A DNA stretch of 64,000 bases from Candidatus Binatia bacterium (GTDB lineage Bacteria; Desulfobacterota; Binatia; Bin18): assembly GCA_022826945.1 (NCBI GenBank), contig JAJDTY010000086.1, positions 1 to 64,000 on the forward strand, given 5' to 3'. Under the pieces are notes generated by a model, which saw only the letters and a program-made list of their open reading frames with translations, was not told where the DNA came from and searched no databases. A program made the position numbers and the translations under genes. Shown here piece after piece: positions 14,050 to 22,001 of this stretch (the first letter of the stretch is position 1; each line of letters begins with the position of its first letter).

Positions 14050-15465
14050 TCACCGGCCCAGTGTTCTATAGTGTTCGGCCAGCACGCGGGCCACGCATGC
14101 GGTTAGCCGTTTCCCCATCGAGAGTTCCAGAAACTCGTTCGGTCCGTGCGCGTTCGAGTGTGGGCCAAGCACACCGGTAATCATAAATTGAGCGGTGGGG
14201 AATTTTTCACCCAGCATTGCCATAAAAGGAATCGTCCCGCCCTCGCCTATAGCGCACATGTCTTTGCCGAAAAATTCCTGCGAGGCACTCTGCAAAGCGG
14301 TCTCCAGCCACGGGGCGAGCGGAGGGGCGTTCCAGCCGCCAGCCGCCCATTCGGGTTCAAAGGATACCTGCGCACCATAGGGTGGGTCGTGCTCCAGGAG
14401 TTGCTGTAACGCGGCTGAGGCCGCGTCCGCGTCCAGGGTCGGCGGAATCCGCAGCGACACCTTGGCCGCGGTAACGGGCCGCAGCACATTGCCGGATTGC
14501 TCAAGCGCGGGCAGGCCGGCCGCACCGGTAATTTCGAGTTGAGGCCGCCAAGTCCGGTTGAGCAGGAGCTGGCGGATATCCGACGTCACCGCCTGGGCTC
14601 CGGAATGAAAGGGAAATTCTGCTGAGACGGTCTGCCCTAACACGTTCGCGGTTATCCGGGCCTGTTGCAGCCGTTCGTCCGGTATTGCGACCTGAAATTC
14701 GGGCGACAGGATTTCTCCGGTGCGCTCGTCTTCGAGGCGGCTCAGGAGTTGACGTAGAATACGAAAGCTCGAAGGAACGATGCCGCTAGCCGCGCCTGAG
14801 TGGACTCCTTCGGTGAGTGTCGAGACACAGAGATTTCCTGACACCAAGCCGCGCAAAGAAGTCGTAATCCAGAGTTGGTCGTAGTTGCCGCAGCCCGAGT
14901 CAAGGCAGACGACGAAGCTAGGCGTACCGATACGGTCGGCCAAGGCGTCCATATAATAGGGCAAATCCCCGCTGCCACTCTCCTCGCAGGCTTCGATAAT
15001 GACCACACAGCGGGCAACCGGAACACCCTGGCGCTTGAGTGCCGCAATGGCGGTCAGGGAAGCACAAGCCGCATAGCCATCGTCGGCACCTCCACGCCCG
15101 TACAGTTTGCCGTCTCTCAGCACCGGCTGCCACGGGCCGAGCCCGTCATACCAACCATCCATGGGCGGTTGTTTATCCAGGTGACCGTAGAGCAGTACGG
15201 TTTCAGACGAATCGCCCGGAACTTCGATAAAGAGTAAGGGCGTACGGCCCTCAAGCTGGACCACCTCAAGGCTTAGACCGGGAACCGCCTGACTGCGAAT
15301 CCAGCCAGCGATGAGTTCGACAGCCTGGTCCAGATAGCCGTTCGTTTGCCAGTCAGGGTCGTAGGCCGGAGATTGGTTGGGTATGGCCAGGTATTTCGTC
15401 AGGGTGGGGATAATACTATTATCCCAGGTGGATTCGACAAATTGCCAGGTTTTTTGGGTATCCAT
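14050..15465 (-). CDS. M20 family metallopeptidase / dipeptidase
   Basis: A 471-residue di-zinc aminoacylase/carboxypeptidase-type protein. YGHLDKQPP supplies the first metal histidine and aspartate, GRGGADDGY the bridging aspartate, and ACEESGSGD the catalytic and metal glutamates. A late GPHSNAHGPNE segment supplies the last histidine. The central dimerisation insert is present (about residues 200-360). Most relatives are cytosolic dipeptidases or acyl-amino-acid hydrolases; the exact substrate is not predictable. I chose ATG at 15465 rather than an upstream TTG at 15492; neither has a strong ribosome site. It is divergent from the ArsC-like gene. Confidence 0.88.
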   Translation of the reverse strand: MDTQKTWQFVESTWDNSIIPTLTKYLAIPNQSPAYDPDWQTNGYLDQAVELIAGWIRSQAVPGLSLEVVQLEGRTPLLFIEVPGDSSETVLLYGHLDKQPPMDGWYDGLGPWQPVLRDGKLYGRGGADDGYAACASLTAIAALKRQGVPVARCVVIIEACEESGSGDLPYYMDALADRIGTPSFVVCLDSGCGNYDQLWITTSLRGLVSGNLCVSTLTEGVHSGAASGIVPSSFRILRQLLSRLEDERTGEILSPEFQVAIPDERLQQARITANVLGQTVSAEFPFHSGAQAVTSDIRQLLLNRTWRPQLEITGAAGLPALEQSGNVLRPVTAAKVSLRIPPTLDADAASAALQQLLEHDPPYGAQVSFEPEWAAGGWNAPPLAPWLETALQSASQEFFGKDMCAIGEGGTIPFMAMLGEKFPTAQFMITGVLGPHSNAHGPNEFLELSMGKRLTACVARVLAEHYRTLGR

Positions 15466-15552
15466 ACGGGAATTGTAGCTGGCGGTTGCCAATCCGGTCT
15501 AGCCGTCCGGCCCCCAACTCGGTAAGCTGACGGTCTGAAGGAGGTTGACGCT

Positions 15553-15906
15553 ATGGCAGAGCTCGTTGTGTATCACAATCCTGGTTGAGGCAAGTCACGC
15601 GGAGCGCTCGATATTTTGCAGGAGCGCGGCGTCGAGTTCGACGTGATTGAGTATCTCAAGAGCCCCCTCGGTCGGGAAGACTTTGAACGCTTTCTGGACC
15701 TGTTGCCGGATGAACCCGCGGAACTGGTCCGTAAGGATAAAAAATTCAAGGAACTCGGGCTGAACGCGGACAACTATGTGACGCGCGAGGCCGTGGTCGA
15801 AGTCTTACTCCAGCATCCTGAGCTGATGCAGCGACCGGTTATTATCAAGGATCAAAAAGCGGTCATCGCCAGGCCGTCAGAAAAGGTGCTGGAACTGCTA
15901 GATTAG
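15553..15906 (+). CDS. ArsC-family arsenate reductase-like selenoprotein (in-frame UGA = Sec12)
   Basis: Read through one in-frame TGA (15586-15588), this gives a 117-residue ArsC (glutaredoxin-type arsenate reductase) protein. The start is MAELVVYHNPG, then the TGA codon at position 12, then GKSRGALDILQERG. E. coli ArsC has catalytic Cys12 at this spot in YHNPAC. The three arginines that bind arsenate in the family are present (LVRKDKK, QRPVII, ARPSEK). The start codon has AAGGAGG nine bases upstream, although without readthrough only 11 codons would be made. A hairpin sits 15 bases after the UGA. A pseudogene or a sequencing error (TGC/TGT to TGA) is the alternative, but one stop exactly at the redox residue argues for selenocysteine. 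Confidence 0.8.
15604..15627 (+). other. Candidate bacterial SECIS hairpin
   Basis: GCGCTC (15604-15609) pairs perfectly with GAGCGC (15622-15627) around a 12-base loop, GATATTTTGCAG, that begins with G. Beyond a two-base mismatch on each side, three more pairs (including one G-U) can form. The stem begins 15 bases after the UGA of the ArsC-like gene. Bacterial SelB-binding elements lie within the coding sequence just after UGA, and a guanine in the apical loop is typical. The structure is drawn by eye; no folding energy was computed. Confidence 0.6.
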
Positions 15907-15938
15907 CCCTCCGTCGGACGACGCTACGCGAATCCGAC

Positions 15939-17258
15939 CTACACAGGGCACGTACGCTCGGGGACGCCCACCAGGGTATGGGCATTGGCGGAGGTTACCC
16001 GGACCGGCACCAGTTCGCCGGGTCTGGCTCCGTTGCCGGGAAAGACCACTGTTTTGAACTGCGGATCTTTCCCCGCGAGCCAGTCTTTTTGCTTCTTGGC
16101 CGGCCCTTCAACCAGGACCTCGACAGTCTGACCCACCCGTTGCCGGTTGATCTCCCCCCCAATGCCTTCCTGCAGGCGGATAATCTCCTGTAGACGCTGT
16201 CCCTTTTCCGCTTCCGAGAGGGTCTCGCCCCATTTATAGGCCCGCGTCCCCTCGCGGGCCGAATACTTGAACATAAAGGCAAAGTCGTAGCGCACCTCTG
16301 CCATAAAGTCGTAGGTCGCACGGAAATCGTCTTCCTCTTCGCCCGGAAAGCCAACAATAATATCCGTAGACAGCGCTAGGTGGGGGATGGCTGCACGCAG
16401 CCGGTCCACAAGCGCGGCATATTCCTCTATCGAGTAGCCCCGTTCCATACGCCCCAGGACCCGATTTGAGGCGGCCTGGAGCGGCAGGTGGAGATACGGG
16501 ACAACTTTGTCACAGGTCGCCACGGCGTCAATCGCACTGGCATCCATATCGGACGGATGCGGCGAGGTGAAACGAATCCGCTCAATCCCATCGATACGCG
16601 CAGTCTGGCGCAGGAGTTGGCCAAAATCGACCTCGCCATCCCGATAGGCGTTGACGGTCTGGCCCAGATAGACGACTTCTTTATACCCTTGGTCAACAAG
16701 CGCTCGAACCTGGTCTAGCAGCGCCGACGCGGGCACACTGCGTTCCCGCCCGCGAACGTAGGGCACGATACAGAAGGTACAGAACTTGTCGCAGCCCCGC
16801 ATGATGGTCACCCACGCTCGCACGCCTTCCCCGCGCGCGGGCGCAACATCTGCGTAGGTTTCATCCCGGTCGAGACGGACGGACACCAGCGGTTCATCGG
16901 CACTTTCCTGCGCCAGCAAGGCCGGCAGGTTCCGATAGGCATCCGGTCCCAGCACCAAGTCAAGAAAGGGGGCTTTATCGAGCAGGGCATCCCGATGATG
17001 CTGGGCCATGCAGCCGGTCAGCCCCAGGACAACACCCGGCTTCCGGGCTTTATGTTTCACCAGATCACCCAGTCGCCCGATGATGCGCTCTTCCGCATGC
17101 TCCCGAATCGCGCAGGTGTTCAGCAGGATGACATCGGCTCCCTCCGGCCTAGACGTGGATTCGTATCCCTGCGGTTTCAGCAAGCCCAGGATGAGCTCGG
17201 TGTCAGCGATATTCATCTGACAGCCGTAGGTTTCAATATAGACGGTGCGTGTTTCCAT
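15939..17258 (-). CDS. miaB: tRNA-2-methylthio-N6-dimethylallyladenosine synthase MiaB
   Basis: A radical-SAM methylthiotransferase that adds a methylthio group to i6A37 of tRNAs reading UNN codons. The 439 residues show the full layout. The N-terminal UPF0004 domain has TYGCQMN, NTCAIRE and GCMAQ supplying three auxiliary-cluster cysteines. The radical-SAM cluster motif is CDKFCTFC in a GCDKFCTFCIVPYVRGRE context. A C-terminal TRAM domain lies about residues 370-435 (VGQTVEVLVEG). GCDKFCTFCIVP favours MiaB over MtaB or RimO. ATG at 17258 gives the canonical METRTVYIETYGCQ start. Divergent from the cobalamin-binding protein gene. Confidence 0.95.
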   Translation of the reverse strand: METRTVYIETYGCQMNIADTELILGLLKPQGYESTSRPEGADVILLNTCAIREHAEERIIGRLGDLVKHKARKPGVVLGLTGCMAQHHRDALLDKAPFLDLVLGPDAYRNLPALLAQESADEPLVSVRLDRDETYADVAPARGEGVRAWVTIMRGCDKFCTFCIVPYVRGRERSVPASALLDQVRALVDQGYKEVVYLGQTVNAYRDGEVDFGQLLRQTARIDGIERIRFTSPHPSDMDASAIDAVATCDKVVPYLHLPLQAASNRVLGRMERGYSIEEYAALVDRLRAAIPHLALSTDIIVGFPGEEEDDFRATYDFMAEVRYDFAFMFKYSAREGTRAYKWGETLSEAEKGQRLQEIIRLQEGIGGEINRQRVGQTVEVLVEGPAKKQKDWLAGKDPQFKTVVFPGNGARPGELVPVRVTSANAHTLVGVPERTCPV

Positions 17259-20840: not shown

Positions 20841-22001
20841 TTACAAGGCGGCTGCCGCCTCTTTGCAGGCGTCAATATACTCCGCCTCCGCTTGGGCACA
20901 GGACTGGGCTCGTTGTTGGTTATCCGGATATAACGACAAGAGAACCTCACCGGTCGCGGCGTAACACGCTTCTTTTGAAGCGTCGTCAAGCCGACGGCAA
21001 AACGCCAGTCCACGCTGTGGGTCGGCATGGGTCAAGATGAAATCCTTCACTGCACCGACAAGACACGCTGTCGCCTGTTCCGGGCTGCCCTGCCGACACA
21101 GGCTCATGGTCTTCTCGGCATTCCGTAATGTAAAACCGCTCACATCGCGGCCCAGACTCTCATAGCAGACAGGCACAAACGCGGCCGGCGCACTGGCGCA
21201 CACCTGAAAAGCCTTTGTGAAATCATGCTGCGAAAAGGTCAGGATGGCTGAGGATTGCATCCGGTAACAGGCGCGTTGGTAGGGCTCATCCACCGCGGTG
21301 CAGGGATACAGGGGGTCTTCCGGCCGGAGCAAGCTTCTTGGACGGTCGGCGTGGCCCTCATGTCCCTCCTGATGCGTGTGATGGGGCTGGAGAAAGGCTA
21401 CGACATTCTCCATAAAGACACCGCTGTAGCACGACTCGCGCTCCCAAGGCGAGGCTAAGGAATCGCACCCTTCGAGCGCGGTAGGAAGCTGGTAATCAAA
21501 GTATAAGGTGAGGCCGTGCCCCAGGCCGTGCAGACATTGATACTGCAAGAACGTGGACTGCCACGCATCAATCTCCCTGGTACACACCGCTGCGATGGTG
21601 TCAGCCCGTACCTCGGACAAACTGCGCAGATAGCCTTCCAGCACGCCGTGGTAACAGCCCGACCAGAACGTCTCCCGGCAGTGGGCAAATGCCTCGGCCA
21701 CATCCTTATAGTACGCAAATGATGCCCGACCGAGATGATGAGTGTAGGGATGGGCATCACGCAACACATCGGGGTCCTTCCTTGTCAGCGTGTCCAGAGT
21801 GGCAAGCGCGTGTTCGGTGCCCTGGGTGCGCAGGATTTTTTCCAGTCCGGTATGGTAACACTGCTGCTTTTGGGGCTGGTGTTGATGCCCCCCGCACTGC
21901 CCCCAGAGTTGCTCGGCCTCTTTATTTTCCTGAGCAAAGCTCGGCGGCGTCAAGACACCGACAATCCAAGCGAGCAGGATACCCGACACTATATACCTCA
22001 T
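20841..22001 (-). CDS. Secreted cysteine- and histidine-rich protein, unknown function
   Basis: A 386-residue protein with a clear signal peptide (hydrophobic core about residues 3-22, cleavage near SFA-QE). The mature part carries about twenty cysteines spaced through repeated helical-looking units, plus histidine motifs such as THHLGR, GCYHGVLEG, CLHGLGHGL, CYSGVF and an internal HHTHQEGHEGH cluster. Even cysteine spacing suggests disulfides in an exported protein. HG/GxxHG motifs could bind metal or heme, but no CxxCH cytochrome motif is present. I do not recognise the family. It follows meaB on the same strand, 15 bases downstream, so it may share that transcript. Confidence 0.6.
   Translation of the reverse strand: MRYIVSGILLAWIVGVLTPPSFAQENKEAEQLWGQCGGHQHQPQKQQCYHTGLEKILRTQGTEHALATLDTLTRKDPDVLRDAHPYTHHLGRASFAYYKDVAEAFAHCRETFWSGCYHGVLEGYLRSLSEVRADTIAAVCTREIDAWQSTFLQYQCLHGLGHGLTLYFDYQLPTALEGCDSLASPWERESCYSGVFMENVVAFLQPHHTHQEGHEGHADRPRSLLRPEDPLYPCTAVDEPYQRACYRMQSSAILTFSQHDFTKAFQVCASAPAAFVPVCYESLGRDVSGFTLRNAEKTMSLCRQGSPEQATACLVGAVKDFILTHADPQRGLAFCRRLDDASKEACYAATGEVLLSLYPDNQQRAQSCAQAEAEYIDACKEAAAAL

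Follow-up and report, generated by a model that had tools for sequence, protein, structure and literature searches.

How is an arsenate reductase (ArsC) gene expressed when its frame carries a UGA codon at the position of the catalytic cysteine, and which part of the mRNA could direct selenocysteine (Sec) to that codon? We asked this for a stretch of 64,000 nucleotides from a Candidatus Binatia bacterium (GenBank assembly GCA_022826945.1, contig JAJDTY010000086.1, positions 1 to 64,000), referred to here as the window. On its forward strand the arsC gene occupies positions 15553-15906. It consists of the ATG at 15553, eleven codons, the TGA at 15586-15588 (codon 12), 105 sense codons and the stop codon TAG at 15904-15906, and would encode 117 residues including U12. 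The Shine-Dalgarno sequence GGAGG (15540-15544, forward strand) lies 8 nt 5' of the ATG, and GGAGG was found before the ATG in 16/16 family sequences. An earlier, sequence-only reading of this DNA had described a ribosome site, ATG, 11 codons, TGA, 105 ArsC codons and a stop, and all of these are present. It had also expected a gene caller to pick an internal start, as is seen in the list of table-11 open reading frames, in which the gene begins at TTG 15616 and not at ATG 15553. The observation itself, an ATG followed by an in-frame TGA at the Cys12 column, the ArsC frame and a stop, is thus confirmed.

With the TGA read as a residue, the active site of the product is HNPGUGKSR, which fits HNP-x-C/U-x2-SR. 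The read-through product matched PF03960 (ArsC) at 5.4e-14 and 52.7 bits (cut-off 24), and scored 102.8 bits with TIGR00014, 3 bits short of the cut-off of 106.05. Residues 1-116 of the product aligned with residues 1-116 of the structure 1jzw. In the alignment with chain 2mu0, U12 fell on the Cys, and R60, R94 and R107 on the arginines of that chain, which bears out the proposals that the three family arginines are kept and that the TGA occupies the catalytic Cys12 column. We take Cys12, Arg60, Arg94 and Arg107 to be the residues with catalytic roles in E. coli ArsC.

The same column was followed through relatives. The family search covered 16 genomes, 15 of which had an ArsC match, giving 16 matches (two in genome G005); no ArsC match was found in the remaining one, G010. 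Each of the 16 matches contained one TGA, at the Cys12 column. In the class search 85 of 148 genomes had a match at 1e-15 or better and 86 genes were kept, with TGA (38), TGC (41) or TGT (7) and no other codon at this column. Among the named-collection loci, which overlap with the class set, 79 of 80 were readable and had TGA in 37, TGC in 37 and TGT in 5. Aligning Cys and Sec homologues, a check proposed with the earlier reading, thus placed the TGA at the redox-Cys column. Of the six closest named-collection loci (96-99%), four carry the title Candidatus Binatia, with two of these on a single contig, while one is titled Candidatus Binatota and one Desulfurellaceae. In G005, a single-contig assembly, the loci L024 and L034 (contig C1, 86036 and 5139999) are letter-identical over 3351 bases and lie ~124 kb apart across the contig ends, resembling an untrimmed circular overlap. 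Two further loci, L133 and L142, come from MAG records labelled Klebsiella pneumoniae and Bifidobacterium breve, names that look wrong; their arsC stretches are identical to that of a class member (L047) and, over 66 nt, to that of a locus titled Acidimicrobiia (L140).

Deduplication of the 66-mers left 42 different Sec sequences and 73 different Cys sequences. Eleven of the 42 Sec sequences came from outside the class search, with titles naming Gammaproteobacteria/Pseudomonadales (three), Actinomycetota/Acidimicrobiia/Acidimicrobiales/Acidimicrobiaceae (seven) and Deltaproteobacteria (one). In the window's arsC, the 66 nt that begin with the U of the UGA were identical in seven genomes of the same genus. 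The 42 Sec 66-mers aligned without gaps and fell into 5 clusters by single linkage at 80%, i.e. they are related, and all Sec-ArsC may share one origin. A count of switches between Sec and Cys was attempted with a quick tree of 124 rows, which gave 13 changes; well-supported branches forced just 1, and no number of switches is claimed.

The genome of the window (4.71 Mb in 86 contigs, 90.23% complete, 5.21% contaminated) encodes the machinery for Sec insertion. A tRNA-Sec with the anticodon TCA (70.7 bits), SelA (603.7 bits, on the same contig as the tRNA-Sec), SelB (384.9 bits) and SelD (309.2 bits) were all found above their cut-offs; the sequence-only reading had implied selA, selB, selC and selD and asked for this search. 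In the class set the tRNA-Sec was present in 34/38 genomes with the Sec form. The four without a match to it (G002, G007, G027 and G058) all have SelA, which is partial and below the cut-off in G058. The tRNA-Sec also accompanied 25/48 rows with the Cys form, and its association with the form of ArsC had a Fisher p of 1.9e-4, a value inflated by relatedness. The window's genome holds a second selenoprotein gene, a SelW-like CxxU gene (L224, contig C17, 222269-223084) with an ordinary SECIS element, and another SelW-family match, without TGA, was seen ~4 kb from it. SelW-like Sec genes with a TGA numbered 14 in the family, one of them in this genome, and TGA was absent from all three Fdh-alpha matches of the genome. 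The TGA of arsC is no read error, because it stands at the same column in the family matches and in 38/86 class-level genes. We regard it as extremely unlikely that the gene is broken with the TGA as a genuine stop, or that the TGA is a sequencing error: apart from the stop itself nothing was found to favour this, and both the TGA common to 38 class-level genes, with the frame intact behind it, and the genome's Sec machinery speak against it. The ArsC product thus appears to be a selenoprotein.

Two hairpins were considered in the mRNA downstream of the UGA, the U of which is numbered nt 1. Hairpin H1 (15604-15627, forward strand; arms 15604-15609 and 15622-15627) is the proposed spacer hairpin at about nt 14-42, its arms starting 15 nt 3' of the TGA. 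Hairpin H2 (15629-15644, forward strand; GCGUCG-AGUU-CGACGU with the loop at 15635-15638) is the proposed SelB-binding apex of the SECIS element; across the alignment it pairs nt 43-49 with nt 54-60 and has G[U/G] at nt 51-52 in the loop. Folding was compared in 30-nt windows with copies in which each gene's own synonymous codons were permuted, leaving protein and codon usage unchanged. At nt 13-42 the mean z was -1.79 to -1.85 in Sec forms (n=42) and -0.22 to -0.23 in Cys forms (n=72; p 1.8e-11), and the H1 region of the window's gene itself had a z of -1.58. The corresponding values were -1.47 for Sec vs -0.16 for Cys at nt 31-60 and -1.41 vs -0.39 at nt 40-69. At nt 22-51, which straddles the two hairpins, no effect was detected in the Sec genes (z -0.13). 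Later windows of the Sec genes gave -0.62 at nt 49-78, which overlaps H2, and weak dips at nt 184-213 (-0.66) and 193-222 (-0.46); the value at nt 94-123 (-0.56) did not differ from that of the Cys forms (p 0.27), and nt 58-87 and 67-96 leaned the opposite way. When greedy representatives below 80% identity were used, 15/15 Sec sequences were negative for each hairpin (mean -1.91 for H1, -1.58 for H2), and the means of the Cys representatives (n=58) were -0.19 and -0.26. The five Sec clusters were all negative as well (p 0.06). These comparisons show that the folding of H1 and H2 is under selection in the Sec forms only.

Of the two, H2 is the conserved, covarying hairpin. Its inner four pairs were found in 42/42 Sec sequences vs 11/73 Cys sequences, and its loop was AGTT in 36, CGTG in 4 and AGGT in 2 of the Sec sequences, giving G[G/U] in 42/42. 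In the alignment 95.9% of the H2 cells were paired, compared with 68.0% in the best slid control. The covariation score was 0.324 vs 0.188 for the best slid control, with 0/500 shuffles as high, and there were 14 double-sided cells vs a shuffled mean of 3.2, again with 0/500 as high; two of the five H2 measures were matched by some shuffles, namely double-sided pairs (3; 35/500) and further pair types (10; 21/500). The pair 45-58, for example, was C-G in 26, U-A in 8, G-C in 4 and U-G in 2 sequences and unpaired in 2. The hairpins could in principle result from GC-rich codon choice together with the conserved VEFD peptide, in the absence of any RNA signal, and the codons GTC, GAG, TTC and GAC are indeed common elsewhere in these genes. 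We regard this as very improbable, since permuting codons within the gene abolishes the effect, the Cys forms do not have it, and H2 is kept in the VEFD, VACD, VEVD and IEFG versions of the peptide alike. One Cys-ArsC from a Myxococcales-titled record (L131) keeps GTCGAGTTCGA with an AGTT loop, possibly a relic of a Sec ancestor. Relic SECIS elements in Cys forms generally were also considered; 11/73 pair the H2 core and the AGTT loop occurs only in L131, and no general claim is made.

The sequence-only reading had named a SECIS-like hairpin 15 bases after the TGA, which corresponds to H1. A hairpin does exist there and its folding is selected, but no covariation was found in the register given for it, and measured against its base composition alone H1 was not unusual (z -0.10 and 0.06). 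In an alternative register 67.6% of the cells were paired, and the register differs among lineages. The published bacterial SECIS model places the loop 16-37 nt after the UGA and gives it 3-9 nt, with a G among the first two (PMC13188914); the H1 loop of the window has 12 nt. Loop and spacing rules together fitted 10/42 H1 loops, 5/42 had an early G[G/U], and no common motif was found among the H1 loops of the 42 Sec sequences. The assignment of the SECIS element to H1 is therefore probably incomplete, because H1 shows no covariation in that register, mostly deviates from the loop and spacing rules, and stands beside a conserved H2. H1 acting alone as an ordinary bacterial SECIS, with H2 incidental, would have a conventional distance from the UGA and a hairpin stabler than its codon-permuted controls in its favour. 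With so few fitting loops, and with H2 as the conserved element, we consider this improbable.

H2 follows the published loop rules, at a distance of 46 nt from UGA to loop in 42/42 Sec sequences, which exceeds the 16-37 nt of the published model. The hairpin of E. coli fdhF comprises nt 15-31 with the fixed bases U17, G23 and U24, and SelB is said to be bound by U17 and G23 (PMC8659212); in the window, the H2 stem showed no bulged U of the U17 kind. In the SelW-like Sec gene of the window's genome the hairpin is CCGUCA-GUU-UGGCGG and places GU at nt 26-27, and GGUC occupies nt 22-25 in the Fdh-alpha-like Sec genes of two family members (G009 and G011), both of which score under the TIGR01591 cut-off. 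Since ordinary SECIS elements of these bacteria thus have GU near nt 23-27, the G[U/G] of the ArsC loop at nt 51-52 sits ~25-28 nt farther. H1 lies in this extra stretch, and therefore we propose that it serves as a spacer. According to the proposed mechanism, the product would be a glutaredoxin-type arsenate reductase with Sec in place of the catalytic cysteine, the UGA being read by SelB with tRNA-Sec under a bipartite mRNA signal. H2, with its short stem and N-G-[U/G]-N loop, would be the part bound by SelB. H1 would fold between the UGA and H2, in most cases ending right at H2, and absorb the excess length, so that H1 and H2 could stack and the effective distance of H2 would resemble that of ordinary SECIS elements. 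We favour such a bipartite SECIS in Sec-ArsC, with SelB on H2 and H1 as spacer hairpin, with moderate confidence.

The length of H1 was dropped as proof of the spacer. In folds of nt 4-42 the H1 stretch had a stem in 42/42 Sec sequences, with a span of 24-37 nt (mean 27.95, median 29), and the mean span would place the H2 loop at nt 22.05. The same procedure gave near-equal mean spans, 29.18 for the Cys forms (a stem in 65/73) and 28.79 for the permuted copies (1125/1260); therefore the mean length is set mostly by the stretch that was folded and proves nothing. The 3' end of H1 was at nt 41-42, adjoining H2, in 35/42 Sec sequences, 31/65 foldable Cys sequences and 478/1125 foldable permuted copies, the procedure capping this end at nt 42 in all three sets. 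The Sec forms are thus set apart by a stem in every sequence, by its frequent end against H2 and by a stability above that of the permuted copies. These results also bear on a reading in which H2 is a SelB-binding SECIS that acts unaided at long distance and H1 does something separate, e.g. slows the ribosome at the UGA. The conservation of H2 holds without H1, and H1 varies in register and loop and has the mean length of the controls, all of which would agree with an unaided H2. On the other hand, H1 adjoins H2 in a larger share of the Sec forms than of the controls, and with the loops of ordinary SECIS elements in the same bacteria near nt 22-28, an unaided loop at nt 50 would be odd. We consider an unaided H2 possible, though rather unlikely.

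When nt 1-66 of the window's gene were folded freely, another structure was preferred (-21.9 vs -18.9 kcal/mol) and the probability of H2 was 0.05. When nt 1-15 were kept out, a boundary that is an assumption on the ribosome, H1 plus H2 dominated in the window with an H2 probability of 0.99, and H2 formed in 41/42 Sec vs 7/73 Cys sequences. Free folding of nt 4-66 gave H2 in 32/42 Sec sequences. For fdhF it is stated that the SECIS has to be unwound in its lower portion within the ribosome (PMC4513850). A single long hairpin of nt 8-63, the free minimum-energy fold in the window, was set aside because the probability of H2 exceeded 0.5 in 37/42 Sec sequences (nt 1-63) and nt 22-51 was not under selection.

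Searching the window with Rfam gave nothing at the gathering score, and a relaxed search of 15450-16000 gave Ocean-VII at E 9.1, which is chance level. A model built from the same Sec sequences (R1) found all 38 Sec-ArsC of the class at E 9.9e-12 or better, which follows from its construction for those in the alignment. It also matched the Cys-ArsC of G057 at 1.3e-12, ahead of two Sec ones, and we concluded from this match that R1 responds mainly to shared sequence. Away from ArsC, no R1 match was better than 1.4e-4 (G144).

The protein probably reduces arsenate. The arsenite efflux protein Acr3, a supporting though not strictly defining partner of such a reductase, was found above its cut-off in 15/16 family genomes, including that of the window; G010 has neither Acr3 nor ArsC. 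The arsC gene is flanked by an M20 peptidase gene on one side and, on the other, by a radical-SAM gene with UPF0004 and TRAM domains, which we take to be MiaB-like from this domain combination. One or both of these genes were near arsC in 13/15 family loci compared, within the available flanks, and no ars genes were found among the scanned neighbours of arsC in the window. Elsewhere in the window, a protein of 386 aa is predicted at 20841-22001 on the reverse strand; it contains 18 Cys and 18 His residues, and Pfam gave no match for it at 0.001.

According to a 2026 review, some of the selenoprotein genes of bacteria do not conform to the standard SECIS model, which points to distinct classes (PMC13188914), and a 2025 study found that bSECISearch missed at least 40 known genes (13.0%) in its test genomes (PMC12013277). 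We lean, if only slightly, towards regarding the Sec-ArsC signal as such a distinct class, in which the SelB-binding hairpin is ~28 nt more distant from the UGA than usual and would be brought into position by a folded spacer hairpin that is free in sequence and register and selected for folding; the class would occur in Sec-ArsC of Binatia, Gammaproteobacteria and Actinomycetota records and be absent from Cys-ArsC. If true, the bipartite SECIS would be a concrete, testable design for one class of this kind, it would help gene finders to recover such genes, and RNA folding, rather than length alone, would be seen to set how far the SelB site lies from the UGA. A literature search that covered few subscription papers found no bacterial SECIS with two hairpins or a spacer hairpin. 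In the literature searched, Binatota and selenocysteine occurred together in one paper, selenocysteine just in the title of a reference.

Compared with the canonical SECIS of E. coli fdhF and the bSECIS model, the signal is alike in its short stem, its small loop with G followed by G or U and its intragenic position. It differs in the 46 nt between UGA and H2 loop, in the second selected hairpin between them and in having no bulged U in the window's H2 stem. The SelW-like SECIS of the window's genome has an apex of CGUC followed by AGU, which resembles the CGUCG-AGUU of H2, but unlike H2 it lies at an ordinary distance from the UGA. The protein shares the sequence family, active-site motif and three arginines with glutaredoxin-coupled ArsC (PDB 2mu0, 1jzw and 1i9d), whereas here Sec would replace Cys and the scanned neighbours in the window are not ars genes. 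ArsC-like selenoproteins, which the sequence-only reading had mentioned for marine metagenomes, are indeed on record: they appear in a 2006 survey (PMC1794560), as 'Arsenate reductase (ArsC) 1' with UxxS and 77 sequences in the GOS marine selenoproteome (PMC2398784), as ArsC UxxS (TIGR00014) in a 2026 review (PMC13188914) and in a further review (PMC9312934). The published UxxS protein has the same family, the same motif, Sec at the Cys column and common Cys homologues (PMC2398784, PMC13188914). What differs is that the gene is found here in Candidatus Binatia, with more copies in Gammaproteobacteria- and Actinomycetota/Acidimicrobiia-titled records, and that its RNA signal has been dissected. 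Sec-ArsC is thus already published and the protein described here is a further member; the RNA signal is the new part.
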